Assembly (NCBI GenBank): GCA_963930775.1
Contig: OZ005690.1
Span: forward strand, 13,852,411 to 13,916,410
Direction: 5' to 3'
From: Cliona cf. orientalis
Lineage: Eukaryota; Porifera; Demospongiae; Clionaida; Clionaidae
Length of the DNA: 64,000 nucleotides
The position numbers were made by a program, and so were the translations under genes. Below, in pieces: positions 18,275 to 61,958 of this stretch (position 1 is the first letter of the stretch; every line of letters begins with the position of its first letter). The notes beneath the pieces were generated by a model. It saw nothing but the letters and a program-made list of their open reading frames with translations, did no database searches and was not told where the DNA came from.

Positions 18275-19767
18275 TTATTTTACAATTGGTCCATAGGCAA
18301 CATTCTCTTTCAGTTCAACCAGGTCCTGATGTTCTGGTGTAGATCTCTGCTGTAATTCCTCGTATAGTGGTCCTGGGGTTGGTGGCAGTTGAGATCCTTC
18401 CTTGGCAGCATTCTCCTCATAATCAGCTGATGAATCTGATGCTGCTTTTCTTGCGGTACATGATCGCTTATGCTTATGACTAAACCAGCCACAGGCATAT
18501 CCAATGGAAAGAAATACTATTGAGCTTGTCACGCACACGGTAGCTATAGTTGATGAGAACACAGCTACTGTCAAATTAACAGATCGGGTCTGCACTGTGA
18601 CTGGATTTGTAACTTGTATGGAATCACTGGTGCTCACTAATAGTATTTGAGGGCATCTTTCTGTATAAAAATAACAATAATATAATTATTATGAAATCTG
18701 AGTTGCCAGCATGATGAATCTTTGGAGCTTACTATAGTTAAGTGCTCTGTGAACTACTTGACTTGTTCCACAGAGGGACGCCACAACACTGACATTATAT
18801 TTGATATTGTATGATAGAAGTAATTGAGCGCTGCTCGTTCCTGTGTAGTTGATAGCTCTCTCTGGAGCAACGTAGACAACATAGGATACACCATTATTAG
18901 CAACCCACTCCAGAGTTACAGCAACAAGGTTCATTTGATAATCTTCAGAAATGTTAACACTCGGAGTGACTATGTCATAATCATAAATTATATATCTAAT
19001 GAACACTTGACCATGCACTCAGTAGCTGCATAGTTGAAATTGTATATGGTAAAGGTCGTCAATATAGTGGTTTCACTTAACTGTACAGTTCGATGCCGGC
19101 GCCTCAGTCGTAGACTAGCCTCGGATCATTGGGAATCTGAGAGTGTCTCTGGACCTCGATAGTGACAAAGCTAAGAAGAACTCAACAGCACAGTACAGCT
19201 AGATTGGTCCGGCGGCACGCTACTCATGGTGTGTGCTATATATAGCGCAGGGCTATCTATATATATCCACAGGATTACGTCAGCCTAGAGAACGCGTGAA
19301 GTTCGGCCGTCGCTGCTCGTCAGAGAAGACAACACGCTGCTTGTAAGGTATTCGCTGGATACACGCGCAAGATACTCTATGTATTTCACTAAATTTCAAG
19401 TCCCAGAAGGGCTCCATCGAGGCCCTGAATTTTCTCATAATTACCTCATAGATTACCTCATAATTACCTAATAACTGCAAAAAAGTAAATTGTTACTGAG
19501 TGCATAATATTATCATGCCATAAATAATAAACAACTCACGTTGCCACTGTTATTTCTTGCTAGGATTAATAGCAGACTAGCATTAGCCAGGGATTGTCCA
19601 AAAGTTTCTGATGAACAGGTAATTACAGTTCCATTGAGATCAGCCGTTGTGTTAAGAGTGGACATTGTGGACATCAGTGATAGAGATAAACTTTCATTCA
19701 CGGACCTCGAGATATATAAGGTGGTCAATTGCCACTCCTCTGTCACTCCTCTGTCCATGTTTGTCAA
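18275..19767 (-). pseudogene. Receptor B1: Ig (half)-FN3-TM-tyrosine tail, 5' damaged
   Basis: The recognisable exons are half an Ig domain (about 19767-19552), FN3 (18969-18733) and TM/tail (18660-18275). The FN3 exon has LSYNIKYNV...SLCG like its relatives, and the TM exon joins it in phase. The tail carries ADYEEN, GPLYEEL and C-terminal ENVAYGPIVK, where VAYGPI fits an ITIM (V-x-Y-x-x-I). There is no CCP exon. The Ig exon starts abruptly at a dispersed repeat, so the first cysteine half is missing, and its donor (after NNSGN) leaves the wrong phase for the FN3 exon. A 491-bp MITE fills the intron. The 3' half could still be expressed from another promoter, but as it stands the 5' end is broken. 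Confidence 0.65.
19014..19504. mobile_element. MITE with TGCACTCAGTA ends (copy 1)
   Basis: The 11-bp termini TGCACTCAGTA/TACTGAGTGCA enclose 491 bp. An inverted copy at 27837-28346 shares nearly the whole interior, for example CGGCGGCACGC, GAACGCGTGAAGTTCGGCCG and GACGACCTTTACC. A diverged fragment lies near 24285-24390. This copy sits between the Ig and FN3 exons of B1; the other sits in an intron of B3. A little homology also runs past the left end (GAACACTTGACC), so the true boundary may be wider. Confidence 0.8.
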
Positions 19768-22051: not shown

Positions 22052-24040
22052 TTAGGTGGCTGTGTATTTCAGTGGACCATAAGCAGCATTTTTCATCATT
22101 TCCATGTCTTGCTCAGCAGGAATGGTAGTATTGTCAGTTGATGATGAAGCATGAACTTGGCTTGGCTGTACTTGGGTGTCCTTAATGTCTCTCACTGTTG
22201 ACTGTTTGTACTTTTGCCACAGTTGACCGATTATGCATCCAAGTATGAAGAAAATTGTTACAAAAAGGATGACTGAAGAAACTGATGCTATGACTAGAGT
22301 ATTATGAGATTCTCTTGACTGTATTTCTGTAGACCCTGAACATAATATTATTATAAGCAGTATTGTTAGATGTTACCTAGGTAACTAGTGACAGAATATT
22401 CTCCAATACAGAGCAACATCAATATTACAGTCACAAACAGGTTCATGTCAGTGTACACAGTGACACTGTGGGCAACATGCTCAATGTAAAAGAATAGGTA
22501 CTAATTAAATTCCTATGTCAACATCTAACAAGTCAGTTAATTATATTATGGTAGCCATGCACTAGCTGTCTTGTATTGGCCAAGACAGATGCCTGCCATA
22601 TAACAATAACTTGCAATATCAATAATTCATATTATTATTAGACATAATAATACTGGTAATTTATAATCTGGTTATACTTACTGCAACTATATTGGTTGAG
22701 GTCTACACTCCATCTTCCATCACTGAGGCAAGATGCATTAAATATGTCATTAGGGGATTCATCACACCAGAATATCAGCTGAGATCCTTCAAGGGTGGAG
22801 TTGAATAACAAGGAAGCACCATTCCTCGCCAGAGGTATACCACAATCAGCTGGATGATTCATATAATAATTATTACACACTATGTACACACGTACACCTT
22901 AATTAAGCGCCCATGATATGTGTGCTTACCCGGGACACTACGGTAATTAGCTATTCAATATGAAAAACTTGATTACATCCCCAGTAGCTGCATCCAGGCT
23001 CCCATTCCCCATGCATGCATTCCGCATGATGTGTTAGCTCCAGTCCAGGAGGACAAGTGAACACATCTCTGTCATTAAGATCGAATGCCGGCTGCTATTA
23101 GATAATTAAAACTCACCATAACTTAAGGTTAAAGTTGTATTATCACTATTCTGTCCACAGAGAGTTGCTGTAATAGTTACATTATAGACTCTGTTATAGG
23201 ACAGCATCAATTGAAGTCTTGAACTTCCAGTGGAAGTTGAGGGTGCTTGTGGGATAATGTTGGTAGTGTATGTCACACCAGATTCTTCTTTCCACTCAAG
23301 GTCAACGGCAACACTATCGGCACTGAATGTTTCAATGCTGCTAATATTTAGTGGCTGTGAAAGTGCTGTGTGCATGCATAATAAGCTTACTTGGGTTTGC
23401 ACTTTAGCTATAGAACAAATCTGGAAAAATTGGCAACTGGGCAAATTAATGACCACCATTAATATGCATAGATGCTGTTAGTAGACTATAATATTATAAT
23501 TATGCATGCATTTATCTACATATGCATGCTATTACTATAGGACTAGCTGATTTGGGAGTGGCCTGTGGAAGAGGCTAAACCTGTGTATAATTACATGATC
23601 CCTGCTCATTGAATTAACTAACCATCAGCTCCACTTCTTATGACATGGATAGTAGACATCATTTGCAATCTAGTATTGTCATCAAACTCTGACGCACACC
23701 CAATTTTTGTACCATTCATATCAGTTGTGTTTGGAACAGATAAAAGTGAAATCAATGGGAGAGTTCCATTAATAGAAAGTCTTGAAATATTAAATGTGAT
23801 GCCTGCAATATCTATTGGTCGAGTGTATATCGGAGCTGTGTTACTAACAATCCTTGTTTCTGTACCACTTCCAGGTACTGTAACACTCCAGGTCAGAATA
23901 TCTATACTTGCATTGCAGGTGAAAATTAGCTGCTCTTGGGGGCAAACTGATACTCTTTCACGAGGTAGCAAAGACAAATCACTCTCTGCACCTATAATAA
24001 TTAACTATCAGTTTACTTATGCAAACTTTACCAATAATAA
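22052..24040 (-). CDS. Receptor B2: Ig-FN3-CCP-TM, short tail with one tyrosine motif
   Basis: The exons are Ig 23991-23623, FN3 23365-23117, CCP 22849-22682 and TM/tail 22335-22052, all joined in phase 1 with canonical splice sites. The Ig has CPQEQLIFTC...W...C; FN3 has LSYNRVYNVTITATLCG; CCP starts ADCGIPLARNG. A hydrophobic TM (LVIASVSSVILFVTIFF) is followed by a tail of about 60 residues ending MKNAAYGPLKYTAT. Ectodomain exons and introns are nearly identical to B3 on the opposite strand. The expected signal-peptide exon survives only in its 3' half (near 24040-24017, before GTAAAG). Upstream of that, homology stops at a TAATAATATTATTA tract and the frame runs into stops, so B2 may lack a start or use another exon. 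Confidence 0.8.
22985..23078 (-). pseudogene. Relic of a first CCP exon in B2
   Basis: Within the FN3-CCP intron, the minus strand reads FTCPPGLELTHHAECMHGEW, the second half of a sushi domain (Cys...Cys...GEWEPG). It has no usable acceptor and the upstream half is missing. Its position matches CCP1 of B4 and B6, so B2 descends from a two-CCP receptor. Confidence 0.6.
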
Positions 24041-26238: not shown

Positions 26239-29200
26239 ATGAAGTTTACATCACGCTTTATAACCTTATTCTATGTCTGCGATTGCCTCGTTATAGGTAT
26301 AAAAGCTTGCACATAGCTACGTAGTGAATATTAATACATGCAGATTTCGGTCTGATATACAATATTATAGGTGCAGAGAGTGATTTGTCTTTGCTACCTC
26401 GTGAAAGAGTATCAGTTTGCCCCCAAGAGCAGCTAATTTTCACCTGCAATGCAAGTATAGATATTCTGACCTGGAGTGTTACAGTACCTGGAAGTGGTAC
26501 AGAAACAAGGATTGTTAGTAACACAGCTCCAATAAACGTTCGACCAATTGATATTGCAGGCATCACATTTAATATTTCAAGACTTTCTATTAATGGAACT
26601 CTCCCATTGATTTCACTTTTATCTGTTCCAAACACAACTGATATGAATGGTACAAAAATTGGGTGTGCGTCAGAGTTTGATGACAATACTAGATTGCAAA
26701 TGATGTCTACTATCCATATCATAAGAAGTGGAGCTGATGGTTAGTTAATTCAATGAGCAGGGATCATGTAATTATACACAGGTTTAGCCTCTTCCACAGG
26801 CCACTCCCAAATCAGCTAGTCCTATAGTAATAGCATGCATATGTAGATAAATGCATGCATAATTATAATATTATAGTCTATAGACTAACAGCATCTATGC
26901 ATATTAATGGTGGCCATTAATTTGCCCAGTTGCCAATTTTTCCGATTTGTTCTATAGCTAAAATGCAAACCCAAGTAAGCTTATTATGCATGCATACAGC
27001 ACTTTCACAGCCACTAAATATTAGCAGCATTGAAACATTCAGTGCCGATAGTGTTGCTGTTGACCTTGAGTGGAAAGAAGAATCTGGTGTGACATACACT
27101 ACCAACATTATCCCACAAGCACCCTCAACTTCCACTGGAAGTTCAAGACTTCAATTGATGCTGTCCTATAACAGAGTCTATAATGTAACTATTACAGCAA
27201 CTCTCTGTGGACAAAATTATGGTGAAAATACGACTCTAACCCTAAGCTATGGTGAGTTTCAAAACACTGTTGCTATAATATAATAATATATACAATTAAA
27301 CTAATAAGAGTATACTTGATAAATGTGATAATTATTATAATACGGAGAGAGGGAGAGTGTCCTATTCTGTATACCCTAGTGTAATATTTAGTTAAACACT
27401 GTAATAGCCCCGAGGATACAAAGTTGTAGGGTTCTATCGCATAAAGATACCTGCTAATGACCAATCAGATTGTAGTGTTTGTTACAATTTACTATTATTA
27501 TGATCTACAAGCTATGACATAATTATTTCACACAATGTCATAATAATATTATTATACCTGTACCACTAGTATTATAGTAAAAGGTCATGAACTCATACAA
27601 CAGCAGTTGAACTGCAGTATAGGGAGTAGGATACTCTCCCTCTCTCTCTATTAGAATTTGGTATAATAATATTATGTTCCTATGGTAACAACATCTAATG
27701 TCACTAAGACCATTCTTCAGTAGAGCATCCATAGTCAAATCATGTTCAAAACCAACAAAACAGAGAGCTACCCTAGCCCACAATAATTTAATCAGTGTAC
27801 AATGCCTATATGGTATAACACTGGTATACCATATTATGCACTCAGTAACAATTTACTTTTTTGCGGATATTAGGTAATCATGAGGTAATCTAGGAGGTAA
27901 TTATGAGAAAATTCAGGGCCTCGATGGAGCCCTTCTGGGACTTGAAATTTAGTGAAATATGTAGAGTATCTTGCGCGTGTATCCAGCGAATACCTTACAA
28001 GCAGCGTGTTGCCTTCTCTGACGAGCAGCGACGGCCGAACTTCACGCGTTCTCTAGGCTGACGTAATCCCGTGGATATATATAGATAGCCCTAGCCCTGC
28101 GCTATATATAGCACGCACCATGAGTAGCGTGCCGCCGGACCAATCTAGCTGTACTGCGCTGTTGAGTTCTTCTTAGATTTGAAATTTTTCACTATCGAGG
28201 TCCAGAGACACTCTCAGATTCTCGATGATCCGAGGCTAGTCTACGGCTGAGACACCGGCATCGCCGGTATTTTACAGTGAAGTGAACCCACTATATTGAC
28301 GACCTTTACCATATACACCATTTCAACTCTGCAGCTACTGAGTGCATGGTCAAGTGTTCATTATAGTAACAATACCAAGTACCTTAGATGATTTCCACCC
28401 GCTCTGTGCTTAGACCTTGTTGGAAATCATCTATGGTATACATAGTAGTAACAAATACAGCAATCTGCATGATTGGTCAGCTGGAAGTCCATTAATTATA
28501 TTTCACTTAGAGATCTCTCAGTTCACTTATAGACCTCTTGGAGAGGTAGGTCTATTATTGGGCTGCCAAGGGAAAACGATGCACATGCAGTGCAACAGCT
28601 AGTAGACTAGTCTCCAGACTAAATATCATGGTTACAGTTGCTATAATATTACTTTAAATCAGTTAGAGACCTTATCCAATGGTCTCCATGCTCCTCAGGC
28701 CCTTAGTAGCACCCTCGCTTCACTCTTAAAACGTGTAGAGACCTTGGACTCATGCAGTCTCTAACTATTATTTATTATGACACTCTTATAATTATTATTA
28801 TTACTTTGTGCATACATGATAGGATTTAAAAGAAAATTATTAGCAGTCTAGATTCCGTATTCTGCTGACAGAAATGAAAGGCACTATTAAATGTAGCATT
28901 CACTTGTCCTCCTGGACTGGTACTCAGTGGACCTAGCACATAATATTTATTAAAATTGCATGCATGGAGAATGGGGATTGCATGGGAACCTGAAAGTATC
29001 CTGAGGACTCGAGTCAAGTATAAAGCTGATCTATAGTGCAGAAATATTACCCAATAATCGTATACATCGGCAAATCTCACCCAGATATCTCTTGTCAGTT
29101 GAGTGGAACCCACAAGGCAATAATTAAGGCTATTATGATAATCTTTAAATCATACTTATGTACATGATGATATGCACGCATGCATGGTTTTCAATAATTT

Positions 29201-31527
29201 TTATACTTATGAATCATCCAGCTGATTGTGGTATACCTCTGGCGAGGAATGGTGCTTCCTTGTTATTCAACTCCACCCTTGAAGGATCTCAGCTGATATT
29301 CTGGTGTGATGAATCCCCTAATGACATATTTAATGCATCATGCCTCAGTGATGGAAGATGGAGTATAGATTTCAACCAATATTATGATAATAATTGTAGT
29401 ACTCGTTCTCAAGGTATCCACTTAATAACTAGAAAAATTAGTCATACTTATACATAATACTAATTTTCTATTTTAAATCAGTGTTTCATAGTTTATCTAT
29501 CAGTGTGATCTTACTTCCACTTATGGTTGTTATGGGAGTCATTTTGATACTTCTAACAACAATTATTATTATTGTGGTTATGAAGAGGAGAGGTTTGTTA
29601 TCATAGTGTATAATGCAATATACTTTGTGATTATCATATTATTAAAATCATAGGATCACGCTCTAGAAAATTACAAGTGTAAGTCTTTATCTGCATACCT
29701 AAGATTTAATAATTTTATTCTTAAGCTCGATGCAGGGATACTGGGAGATCATCTCAAGACTATGATGCTACTAGTCACCATGTGCATGTATGTGGCTTTA
29801 CATAATAATAATAAATTATTCAGATTAAACTTTAATCTCAGTGTACACTTCCCCGGAGTGAGTACAGTTTAGTGCAATATTCGCCAGAAGAGCAGCAGTC
29901 AGACTCAAAGGTATTATTATGACATTAAGTGTGTACTGTATATATTATTAAGCTTATACCGTATGGCGGGTAATTTTCGTGGGGTCGCGGCTAATTTTCG
30001 TTATTTTCGTGATCGACTGGCAGTCACGAAAATTTCCACCCACGAAAATTAATGCCTACGGTACCGAGTCCGTGACGATGGGCGTGGTCATAAACATCGT
30101 GGCAGCGAAGCTATTATGAACAGTCCTAGTATTTGCAAGTGACAGTAGCCATTGTCATCCAGCTGATAGCGTCTTAGACACTAACATTCTTCTATCTCAT
30201 GCTATTAATTTTGTCCAAGTCTTTGTAGTAGTAACAAAGAAGATCGCGAGCGAGATCGAGCGCGTGTATCAATTACATCATCACTTTGCCGGGTGCCATG
30301 CCCCTGAACTGATTGCTGCCACGAAATTTAAAACCACGAAGATTAATTTTGGGGGCCTTTTCGGACTTTCCACGAAAATTAATACCCACGAAAATTACCC
30401 GCTATACGGTATATATGGATTTTAATATATGCGTCAATCTGAGTTGATAATGATGACCACATTGTATCTATAGGAGCCCAAATCATCTGATTCAAGAAAG
30501 AATTACCTTGTATACGCTGATATTGGTCCTGGATCTTTTAAAAAATCTTGCTTGTCTACAATTGATATTCAGAGTCATAGAGTTGAATATGCACAAGTAA
30601 ATCATGGTGCACGGGTTAAAAGTCAGAAATTGGAGTCCAGAAGTCATGATCAAATTGATAAACTAGTACAATCTGAATTAGGTACAAAAGTTATGAATAT
30701 AATATTGTTAATATTATTATAATATTCAATGATTATAAATTTCGATATATAGCAGTATATGATGTGCATATTATGTCATTTAGCTACTACCTCCCTGACC
30801 CTTTTCATGACATTGTGCATACAGATACCCTTCTCAACCTAGATAGCCTTCTGATTCAACTACAGGCTGAAGTTACTCCAAACTGGTATCAGTTTGGAGT
30901 AGCCATTGGAGTAGAGAAGAAGGTATTAGATAAATATCAACAATATCCACCCGAGCAGAGCATCATAGAGATACTTGATAACTGGTTGAGGAATCATGCT
31001 GGACAACCCACTTGGAGGGAAGTCGCTGAAGCTTTGAGAAAAGTTGGTCTACAAAAATTGGCTTTTGACATTGAGCGAGTTTATGACACAGGTATAAATG
31101 GTTATCATTTCTGTATGCATGCTTTGATTATGAATCTATATAGCTCTCGTTCTGTAATTTTATGTTGCATAAAGTTGTTTGCATGGGATGGTATTATAGC
31201 TATTAAAGTACATAGCTACTGCATAATTCAGATTTCTAATTGGATCTCTTGCAAAATGCATGCTTATAACTATTCATATTACATAAATATTATAATAGCT
31301 TAGCCAAGTAAGGACAGCTAGCTGAATATGTAAAAAGTCATATCCTTTTATTCTGCCAATTTGGTTATCTGAAAGCATAGTAATAATACTAAAAATGACA
31401 TAGCTAATTATCATGTTTTATAGGAAAGCTGCCAATAGAAGTAAATATGAACGAGGTACCGCAGGTCAGTGTGTCTAATTCAGCAGAAGAGTTACCTCCA
31501 CCAATACCACCAAGACTCTCAGACTAG
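26239..31527 (+). CDS. Receptor B3: Ig-FN3-CCP-TM with ITIM-like tyrosines and a Death domain
   Basis: There are eleven exons: 26239-26296, 26371-26739, 27000-27251, 29222-29413, 29482-29592, 29654-29678, 29736-29787, 29842-29910, 30474-30681, 30825-31091 and 31424-31527, summing to 568 codons with no internal stop. Signal peptide MKFTSRFITLFYVC; Ig about residues 25-142; FN3 143-226; CCP 227-290; TM about 298-323. The tail has Tyr345, SEYSLV (Tyr361), LVYADI (Tyr390) and VEYAQV (Tyr415), the last three fitting the ITIM pattern. About 446-532 is a Death domain (NWYQFGVAIGVEKKVLDKYQ ... IIEILDNWL ... TWREVAEALRKVGLQKLA), and the end is PPPIPPRL, an SH3-type ligand. It likely signals at the plasma membrane through both phosphatases/SH2 proteins and Death-domain adaptors (inference). 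Two MITEs occupy introns. Confidence 0.9.
27837..28346. mobile_element. MITE with TGCACTCAGTA ends (copy 2), in B3 intron 3
   Basis: This is the inverted counterpart of 19014-19504, with termini TGCACTCAGTA/TACTGAGTGCA. It lies in the long intron between the FN3 and CCP exons of B3 and is absent from the matching intron of B2, so it inserted after the B2/B3 duplication or was lost from B2. Confidence 0.8.
28399..28790. repeat. Diverged foldback element in B3 intron 3
   Basis: It contains GTAACAAATAC...ATTGGTCAG at 28448 and AGTTAGAGACC...CACCCTCGCTTCACTC at 28660-28770. These are the same landmarks, in the same order, as the foldback elements at 33675-34023 and 38628-38970, but much diverged. 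Confidence 0.5.
28890..29000 (+). pseudogene. Relic of a first CCP exon in B3
   Basis: GTAGCATTCACTTGTCCTCC reads VAFTCPPGLVLSGPST and then is interrupted by a TAATATTTATTAAAA insertion; CMHGEWG follows. It corresponds to the relic CCP in B2 (22985-23078) and to intact CCP1 in B4 and B6. Independent decay in both duplicates suggests that loss began before the duplication. Confidence 0.6.
29955..30413. mobile_element. MITE with TATACCGTA...GGCGGGTAATTTTCGTG ends, in B3 intron 8
   Basis: GCGGGTAATTTTCGTGGG at the left is mirrored by CCCACGAAAATTACCCGC at the right, with outer TATACCGTA/TACGGTATA. CACGAAAATTAATGCC and CACGAAAATTAATACC are internal repeats. It makes up most of the intron 29911-30473 that separates the first ITIM exon from the next. 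Confidence 0.85.
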
Positions 31528-49472: not shown

Positions 49473-51704
49473 TTACTTTGAATCTGCTGGGCGATAGGCT
49501 GTATTCTTCTTTAACGCTACATGCTCTTGCTCAGATGGAGGTATCACTTCATCATACATTACTTTAGGCTTCTCCGTATTTTCTCCTTTCAAATTTTTCT
49601 CAGTAGGTGGCAGAACATCATCGTACATCACAACTGGACGTTTAGGTTTCTCTGGCAAGTCATCCGGCTTAGTCTCGGACCTACTTTTATCCGAATCTTG
49701 CTCGATCAATACATCATCGTACACAGCTATGGGACGGCTTATTGCCATTTTAGCTTGTTCAGAGGGTGGATGCATGTTGTAGTATGTTTCTCTGCATCTA
49801 GGAGAGGGTGTTGGCCTTCGTAGCACAACGCGTTTCTTTCTATTCTTTATCAGTTGACATTTTCGACGTGAGCGATTACAGCAGAGTCCAATCGTGAAGA
49901 AGAGAAGTGCAATAAGCACTGCTTCAGAAAATGCCACTGCTATAGCTATTTGGGCATCTTGACTGAGTATATTGTTATCTGTATTAAAATTAATAACACT
50001 GATTACTTCATGCTTTCCCCCTATTGTTACTACTCTGATCTAACCATGAAATTTGAATCTGATTCACTATGGTGACCCAGAAGGTCACTTGAGATTAATG
50101 ATTAAGAAATTTCAAAACCAAGGCTAACAATATTGCTATGGTGTTATATTATTACCTGACACAACTGCACAAAACTCAGCAGGATTCGGGTCCCATTCTC
50201 CTTGATTATTACAAACTGCTACTGTTATGTTCTCTTCTTCTAAATCATGTGCTGATGCCTGGCAGATAAAGTTCACAACGGCTCCATCAATTGTGCTGAT
50301 ATAGGGAAAGATAAGACCACTAGGGGGAGGAGATGGAGGACCACAGTTTGCTGCAGTAATTGTAAATTGTGAGATAGAAAACACTTGATAGTTTCAGGCT
50401 GATACTGGCATGGAATAATCGTAACTGCTAATAATATCCCAACACAAAGAAGTAATTATTAGTAGGCATGTATGTCTCTCACCTATGCATTTCACCTCCC
50501 GAGGGTCTGGTTCCCATACTCCATTCTCCATGCAAGTCGATCTATGTGGTCCACTGAATGTCTGTCCAGCTAGACAGCTAAATGTGGCATTAGTCTCAAT
50601 CACAGCTGGTTCGTTGTCCAGCAATACACTCACAGAATCATCAATCATTGGCAGATGGAGAGGATGAGTGCATTTGACTATACATGATACCAAGAGTATG
50701 TATTATTCTTATGTTCAATAATTAAGGATTACAATGGACACGCTCACCAAAATATAACACAAGCGTTGTAGTAGCATTTCTGTATCCACAGAGGGTAGCT
50801 ATAATGCTTACATTGTACTGAGTGTTGTACGAGAGTTGCAATTGAACTGTGGTATTTTCAATGAATGCAATATTTTTTGATTGTGGAATCGTGACAACAG
50901 TGTAGACTGTGATATTTCCCGGGCGTTCTGGGCTCCACTCTAAAAGCACTGAAATACTCTCCATTCCATTTTCCAGCACTTTCATTTCAACATCTGGAAC
51001 CTCTGGATCGGCTATAGAGAACAATAATAATGTCCAAATTATTCATTGCAAGTTAGTCACAATAATCTATCCAAAATTAATATAAGATGAATCATATTTT
51101 GTATTCTACTTCAACCTACTAATATGTGGATTGATAATACTCATTGTTGCCACAGATGTACTTGTTTCGACAAGTAAACTTCCAGGATCAGTACAGTTCA
51201 CCTTGACAGATCTTAGATTAAGCAATATGGTGGGTATAGTAAGTGTTGATATCAGTGGGTTCGAATTAAGAGCTGAATTTCTAGTAAAAATAAAGAAGTG
51301 TTGACTGATCATGAGTTGACGCATAGAGTTTATCTGGGTAGATGTAATTAATACTCTTCTGTTTATGCTTTGACCCATTGTTCCTGCTTCAAAGACTGTC
51401 ACATTCCATTCCAAGACACTAAAATTATTCGTGCTGCATTTGAATGATGGTTGACTTCCAGGACAAACCGATATATCTCCAGTAGGCGATAATAATACTC
51501 GAGACTCTATAATTGTAATAATTGTTGCCAAGAGTTATGATAATAATTATACTAGCTACATATATAGTATTATAGCAATACTAATTCTTAAGACATTAGC
51601 GTCTCATAATGGATCGATCTAGAGAACACCTTCATCATGCACTTGCACTTACCTGTGCGTATACTTAGTAAGATAATTAGCGTAAGGAGTAGCTGGTACA
51701 TCAT
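49473..51704 (-). CDS. Receptor B4: Ig-FN3-CCP-CCP-TM with repeated YDDV/YDEV tail
   Basis: The exons are 51704-51653, 51506-51120, 51011-50748, 50677-50483, 50350-50156 and 49978-49473, giving 532 codons. Signal peptide MMYQLLLTLIILL; Ig about 22-146 (CPGSQPSFKC...W...C); FN3 147-234 with LSYNTQYNVSIIATLCG; CCP1 235-299; CCP2 300-364; TM about 375-396. The cytoplasmic part has a basic stretch and then AVYDDV, VMYDDV and VMYDEV, the last two fitting the ITIM consensus. Each sits in a repeated module of about 35 residues (KP-V-YD-V-PP-E), and the C-terminus is KKNTAYRPADSK. This is the most complete class B ectodomain. It faces A3 head-to-head. Confidence 0.9.
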
Positions 51705-61380: not shown

Positions 61381-61958
61381 AGTAGTTACGGTGCCAGTTC
61401 ACACCGACCATACACTACATTACTCTTCAACTGAATTTCCTGCTTCAGAATCTCATCTTGTGACCGTGATATCGGCTGCATAATAGTTTCATACACAGGG
61501 CCAGGGGAGGAATTTCGTGGTGAATTTATGATGTCGTTGATAGTTATCTCTCGATTTGGTATCCTTCTGTATTTTCGACCACAGATACAGCCAATGATGA
61601 AAAAGATTGCTACCAGCACAGCAGCTGATGATGATGCAGTGGTAATTATAGCAATTAAATTGAGTCGTACTCGTCCTGCTGGCAACATGATGACTATGGT
61701 GATAACTATAATGAAGCCAAGTTGATCATAATAATACTAATTTTAATGATGTACCTGTGCATATATGATCTTCAGGATTAGGAATCCAAGTTCCATTGTG
61801 GTGACAGATAGCTATGAACTTGCCTCCTGGCGAAAATCCTTCCTTACAGCCAAAGCTTAACACTGAGCCTTCCAGTGTAGTTGTGTAATCTACTACAATG
61901 CTAGAGCTATTGATAAATGAATCCTGACAATCAGCTATAATAATAGTGCATGCGTGCA

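Follow-up and report, generated by a model that had tools for sequence, protein, structure and literature searches.

A clustered family of sponge receptor-like genes predicted to join paired ITIM-type tyrosines and a Death domain in one cytoplasmic tail

Dozens of receptor-like genes in a sponge genome are predicted to carry paired ITIM-type tyrosines together with a Death domain in the cytoplasmic tail. One of them, B3, lies in the window, the 64-kb stretch of DNA analysed here, within which positions are given. Judged by its sequence relatives, B3 belongs to a large receptor family whose genes are clustered, and is not a lone oddity. The preliminary description had placed ITIM-like tyrosines and a Death domain in a single receptor tail, and this combination was confirmed by an intact spliced model, a Death fold and dozens of paralogues. 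It is a rarely seen combination and hints at an early receptor for immunity or self-recognition that might both restrain and trigger a response.

We found that B3 can be assembled from 11 exons between 26239 and 31527 of the + strand, separated by ten GT-AG introns and read in a single frame of 566 residues (Table 1). The ITIM consensus (S/I/V/L)xYxx(I/V/L) is matched three times in the cytoplasmic tail. This consensus is short: when the 242-residue tail was shuffled 20,000 times, about 3.5% of the shuffled sequences had three or more matches. Three matches in B3 alone are unremarkable; it is the family evidence that decides. The PPPIPPR of the last exon is one that we take to be class II SH3-ligand-like. 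By eye, the intron between exons 8 and 9 (approximately 29946-30420) has inverted ends (GGCGGGTAATTTTCGTGG ... CCACGAAAATTACCCGC) and resembles a small inverted-repeat element.

Table 1. Exons of B3 and the paired neighbouring gene, as positions in the window
Feature	Position	Strand	Basis
Exon 1, start codon and hydrophobic N-terminus (MKFTSRFITLFYVCDCLVI), likely signal peptide	26239..26296	+	splice/frame check; signal peptide by eye
Exon 2, Ig-like	26371..26739	+	C17, C26, W35 and C99 (exon numbering) identical in all 10 aligned sequences
Exon 3, FN3-like	27000..27251	+	resemblance to L072 exon
Exon 4, CCP/Sushi-like	29222..29413	+	homology to L068 exon
Exon 5, TM segment then MKRRG	29482..29592	+	by eye and hydrophobicity rule
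Exon 6, juxtamembrane	29654..29678	+	splice/frame check
Exon 7, juxtamembrane	29736..29781	+	splice/frame check
Exon 8, SEYSLV (Y359), first ITIM-like motif	29842..29910	+	splice/frame check
Exon 9, two-ITIM exon: LVYADI (Y388) and VEYAQV (Y413), 25 residues apart	30474..30681	+	splice check, family alignment
Exon 10, Death domain	30825..31091	+	PF00531 profile
Exon 11, C-terminal tail with PPPIPPRLSD	31424..31527	+	splice/frame check
Paired neighbour: Ig-like, FN3-like and CCP-like exons, different TM, short tail	22052..23991	-	DNA comparison to B3; first exon outside model

The Death domain was examined with the PF00531 profile, which scored 23.4 bits in the full protein (curated cut-off 22.6) and 28.1 bits in exon 10 alone. 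Exon 10 falls inside the Death fold, as had been proposed for this region. In a Pfam scan of the 566-residue protein at E up to 1, no ZU5 domain, no TSP1 domain and no TNFR repeats were found.

A genome of 217 Mb in 149 contigs was searched for relatives. With the B3 Death exon as query there were at least 148 matches (E limit 0.001); at least 114 of them had E up to 1.8e-9, and at least 53 of the 114 lay on contig C2. These counts are lower bounds because 150 of 548 candidates were scored. We examined 41 distinct Death exons, drawn from the Death-exon and ITIM-exon searches. A regular expression for two tyrosine motifs found the pair upstream in 37 of the 41 loci, and L061 (LVYVDI) was added by eye to give 38. 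As this set had been retrieved in part with the ITIM exon, the fairer figure comes from the best 30 loci of the Death-exon search, B3 included, which are its closest relatives and not a random sample of the at least 114: both ITIMs were present in 27 of the 30. The ITIM exon was truncated in L024 and L032, and none was found in L038.

The reverse search gave a similar picture. ITIM-exon matches were collected at 51 places, from searches at E up to 1 and E up to 0.5 plus pattern matches, the weakest of which may be chance. At 41 of the 51 one of the 114 Death exons followed within 5 kb on the same strand (two of these links span 1.5 and 4.1 kb), and for the other 10 no listed Death exon was found within 5 kb. 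A DNA pattern for VEYAxLNH-type codons occurred at 21 places, with none for the reversed control. Among the 10 places with no listed Death exon, L040 has a divergent one, and L046 and L060 have Death fragments only. On contig C1, L046, L058 and L060 each have an ITIM-pair exon, and any Death-like frame that follows it is fragmentary at most; it is possible that they form a branch that has lost or changed the Death domain.

We aligned 38 two-ITIM exons (mean pairwise identity 37%) to see which positions are held. The two tyrosines were the sole invariant columns and the pair accounted for 76 of the 88 tyrosines, in a set picked largely by the tyrosine regular expression, a choice that biases invariance, and the pN/pS of the motif hexamers, towards constraint. 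Since that expression had required the tyrosines, the profile was rebuilt with both tyrosine columns masked and run against all of the available DNA. With an E limit of 0.01 it recovered 46 distinct exons; 44 of these had tyrosine at both sites, and six of the 44 were outside the original 38. The two exceptions were truncated matches, L024 lacking the first site and L032 the second, and no other residue stood at either position.

The surroundings of the tyrosines are similarly restricted in the 38 exons. The first site mostly reads [LVI]-[VI]-Y-A-D-[IVL], with L, V or I at -2 in 35 and C, M and T once each; the second mostly reads V-E-Y-A-x-[LI], with V at -2 in 37 and I in one. At +3 every one of the 38 exons has I, L or V after each tyrosine, and the tyrosines lie 24-31 residues apart. 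Over the full set pN/pS was 0.30 and 0.25 for the two hexamers vs 0.72 for the remaining exon, and in a recent subfamily of 12 it was 0.16 and 0.21 vs 0.45; these values are uncorrected, and pS of the full set is near saturation (0.66-0.70). The claim of three ITIM-like tyrosines holds for B3 itself and, for the second and third, family-wide, but in the upstream DNA examined just 5 of the 41 loci, counting B3, had an SEYSLV-like motif. On the 3' side of the Death exon, 27 of the 41 loci had a PPxPP[RK]-type motif (the one in L067 was judged a plain proline run); on the opposite strand, taken over its whole length, the motif occurred at 1 of the 41.

B3 has one putative TM segment and would be a type I receptor. 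Its extracellular part had been described as Ig-FN3-CCP, although Pfam gave no match in any of the three exons. The CCP label stands by homology: the exon is 38% identical (pairwise E 2e-13) to one in L068 that scores 24.5 bits with PF00084 (Sushi; cut-off 20.7), B3's own exon being negative. The Ig and FN3 labels rest on weak resemblance. The FN3-like exon resembles one in L072 (32% identity across 75 columns, pairwise E 2e-8) whose own fn3 score, 21.0 bits, is below the cut-off of 25. The Ig-like exon keeps an invariant C-W-C pattern across 10 aligned sequences; its predicted model was poor, with no Ig among the matches listed. Elsewhere in the family, Pfam-positive Sushi exons lie 5' of the Death exons in L068 and L070, and Ig domains (E 2.5e-15) lie 5' of that in L075, the exons being assigned to these three loci by position and strand without splicing.

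Comparison of DNA within the window revealed a second gene whose ectodomain is nearly that of B3. Identity was 98.4% for the Ig-like exon, 95.6% for the FN3-like exon and 97.5% for the CCP-like exon, where the match covers 161 of 192 bases; a 901-base stretch that takes in an intron is 97.1% identical. The TM exon of B3 and the DNA of exons 6-9 had no blastn match in this neighbour at E 1e-5. Its tail is short, ends in NAAYGPLKYTAT and has neither the ITIM pair nor a Death domain. The neighbour and the 26371-29413 (+) part of B3 thus have a paired-receptor layout, with near-identical ectodomains, unrelated TM segments and tails, and inverted orientation. Matching ectodomains with unlike tails are the layout of vertebrate paired receptors.

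Three further receptor-like tails were noticed on the - strand of the window. At 49476-50039 a TM frame is followed by the repeats AVYDDV, VMYDDV and VMYDEV, and the family Death profile, run against the window, had no match at this tail. The others lie at about 18275-18660 (PLYEEL and VAYGPI) and 61389-61736 (PVYETI and VVYGRC).

We also searched the genome for signalling proteins. A gene of SHP2 type is present on contig C8 (9936138-9938107): partial SH2, SH2 and PTP matches follow in order within 2 kb, with VVHCSAGIGRTG, and the second SH2 matches PTPN11/SHP2 at E 2.6e-55. In total there were 103 SH2 matches and 186 tyrosine-phosphatase-type matches. Contigs C15 and C4 hold very many of the phosphatase-type matches, many in close succession. 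DED matches numbered 65 (E limit 0.001) and caspase-type matches 33 (E limit 1e-15), and on contig C9 DED, DED and caspase frames stand in a row. At L082 (G000:C9:269500-271000), with L077, DED, DED and caspase frames are followed closely by a separate Death-type frame. No FADD-type adaptor was identified. In L003 one long frame encodes a Death domain, then a TM-like stretch, then a P-loop-like region; the product may be an NLR-like Death protein in membrane form. One exon of the genome had silicatein alpha as its best PDB match (E 2.3e-26), the next being a cathepsin-silicatein hybrid (8.5e-20). Given the biology of silicateins, this indicates that the host is a sponge that makes silica, in all likelihood a demosponge.

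The explanation that we prefer, and to which we give about an even chance, is a clustered family of ITIM-pair and Death-domain receptors in which docking of an SHP2-type phosphatase restrains signalling and Death assembly is gated. Binding of a ligand or partner would cluster the receptor, and a Src-type kinase would phosphorylate both ITIMs. The phosphorylated pair would bind the SHP2-type phosphatase through its tandem SH2 domains and so restrain kinase signalling at the membrane, while clustered Death domains would nucleate a Death-fold adaptor assembly with a caspase or NF-kB-type output. The docked phosphatase may gate the Death-domain output, the two outputs competing or being ordered, and receptors with matching ectodomains and other tails, as in the neighbour, would compete for the same ligand. 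Phosphatase recruitment by the predicted ITIMs and a death or NF-kB output by B3 are candidate functions. The setting is likely immune or self/non-self recognition (allorecognition), a part of the proposal that we infer more weakly.

In vertebrate ITIM receptors, the SHP tandem-SH2 preference is for a hydrophobic residue at -2, I, L or V at +3 and comparable spacing. The hydrophobic -2, the I/L/V at +3 and the 24-31 residue spacing of the sponge pair fit this preference, which argues against a somewhat unlikely alternative, namely that activating or adaptor proteins (Src-type, or SHP2 in a positive role) bind the tyrosines through their SH2 domains and that both modules signal positively. In favour of such an arrangement, 'inhibitory' is a vertebrate label, the number of SH2 matches suggests that many SH2 proteins are available, and the proline motif could recruit SH3 proteins. 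In UNC5, according to the available text of PMC6080411, phosphorylation is required for the guidance function and SHP2 docks too.

The sequence YxxPhi is contained in each conserved ITIM, and the motifs might instead serve endocytic sorting and so control how much of a Death-domain receptor stands at the cell surface. We consider this quite unlikely. Sorting signals have no requirement for V or I at -2, a fixed context or narrow spacing, and the pair shows V/I at -2, near-fixed VEYA and YAD contexts and a narrow range of distances that sorting would not need. A precedent of a related kind is Fas, in which a tyrosine of the Death domain itself drives clathrin-dependent entry (PMC4778973, available text).

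Stops occur in the Death exon of some relatives (e.g. L057), which could suggest that B3 is a decaying, functionless copy, but B3 has no stop, its splice sites are intact, its frame is full-length and the motifs appear constrained across the family, which makes decay very improbable. As to the tail being one unit, the Death-exon junctions could be scored at 36 of the 41 loci; the acceptor was phase 1 at 33 of these and the donor at 34. In 32 of 38 cases a phase-1 donor followed the ITIM exon, the end of which had been trimmed by eye. The junction seems conserved and the Death exon looks internal. It is very likely that the Death and ITIM exons of B3 belong to the same gene, as the preliminary description had it, an assignment made at sequence level from the exon order and phase-1 splice sites shared across dozens of paralogues. 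That the Death exon was wrongly joined to B3 from an adjacent gene when the tail was modelled is barely credible given this common exon order with its phase-1 junctions and the in-frame joining of the B3 Death exon to its neighbours.

A wider and more tentative proposal, which we rate as rather unlikely, is that sponges evolved a large paired set of ITIM-gated Death receptors as an immune or allorecognition repertoire, with ITIM logic already in an early-branching animal. In clustered genes, shared ectodomains would be joined to different tails, either an ITIM pair with a Death domain or a short tail with a tyrosine motif, and therefore a ligand might be read as 'spare' or as 'kill/inflame'. 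If true, 'spare' (SHP-type docking) and 'kill/inflame' (Death-fold assembly) would be possible even in a single molecule, with inhibition and death or inflammation combined on one chain. This raises the question of whether a tyrosine pair gates a Death domain. A constrained multigene ITIM family in a sponge would extend ITIM logic to one of the earliest-branching animal lineages, and the B3 family offers named candidate genes for sponge self/non-self recognition.

Among known systems, LILRB, Siglec, SIRP and PD-1 carry ITIM-type motifs in tandem, similarly spaced and built on VxYAxL-like cores, and vertebrate paired inhibitory receptors have look-alike ectodomains and different tails encoded by neighbouring genes. 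We know of no Death domain in LILRB, Siglec, SIRP or PD-1. Their tandem ITIMs resemble the pair of B3; we note a likeness and claim no homology.

ITIM-type signalling has been argued to be common to recognition systems from cnidarians to mammals (PMC12065747, available text). The same text describes the allorecognition loci Botryllus FcoR, which has Ig and sushi domains, and Hydractinia Alr, with ITIM or related tyrosine tails (PMC12065747). The term 'Death domain' is absent from its text, and the tie to allorecognition is theirs and not that of the B3 family. In sponges, the available texts report Ig-TIR proteins, an Ig-CARD gene and Death-NACHT-LRR proteins (PMC6208332, PMC12909245, PMC8242945, PMC9505182), the gene with Ig domains and a CARD being from D. 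avara (PMC6208332), and Ig-domain receptors upregulated after grafting (PMC2248247). The Ig-TIR and Ig-CARD forms join Ig to an innate domain as B3 may do, but the domain is TIR or CARD and not Death, and no ITIM is described in the available text. Reviews covering both ITIMs and sponges do not, in their available parts, describe sponge ITIM receptors (PMC11999971, PMC2248247), and a literature title search of incomplete coverage returned nothing on the combination of ITIM and Death domain.

The closest precedents lie among Death-domain receptors. In UNC5, Ig domains occur together with a phosphotyrosine to which SHP2 is recruited and with a Death domain in the tail; TSP and ZU5 domains are present too (PMC6080411, available text). 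B3 shares with it, as far as that text goes, a putative Ig-like part, a putative SHP2 site and the Death domain, but differs in having a paired motif and no ZU5 or TSP1 in the Pfam scan. To our knowledge UNC5 has no paired ITIM exon and is not arranged as a tandem array of dozens of genes. In Fas and TRAIL-R, which like B3 have a Death domain, it is that domain itself that provides the link to SHP-1 (PMC4778973, PMC10967194), and TRAIL-R has no ITIM according to the available text of the TRAIL-R paper (PMC10967194); the Pfam scan of B3 gave no TNFR repeats. The preliminary statement that no standard receptor family combines these features is too strong for the signalling logic because UNC5 already unites Ig domains, an SHP2-recruiting phosphotyrosine and a Death domain, with Fas and TRAIL-R as further partial precedents, though it keeps some force for a tail with a paired motif in a protein without ZU5 or TSP1. 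The interest of the B3 family would lie in its scale, its apparent constraint and its sponge host, the ITIM and Death-domain combination itself having these partial precedents.
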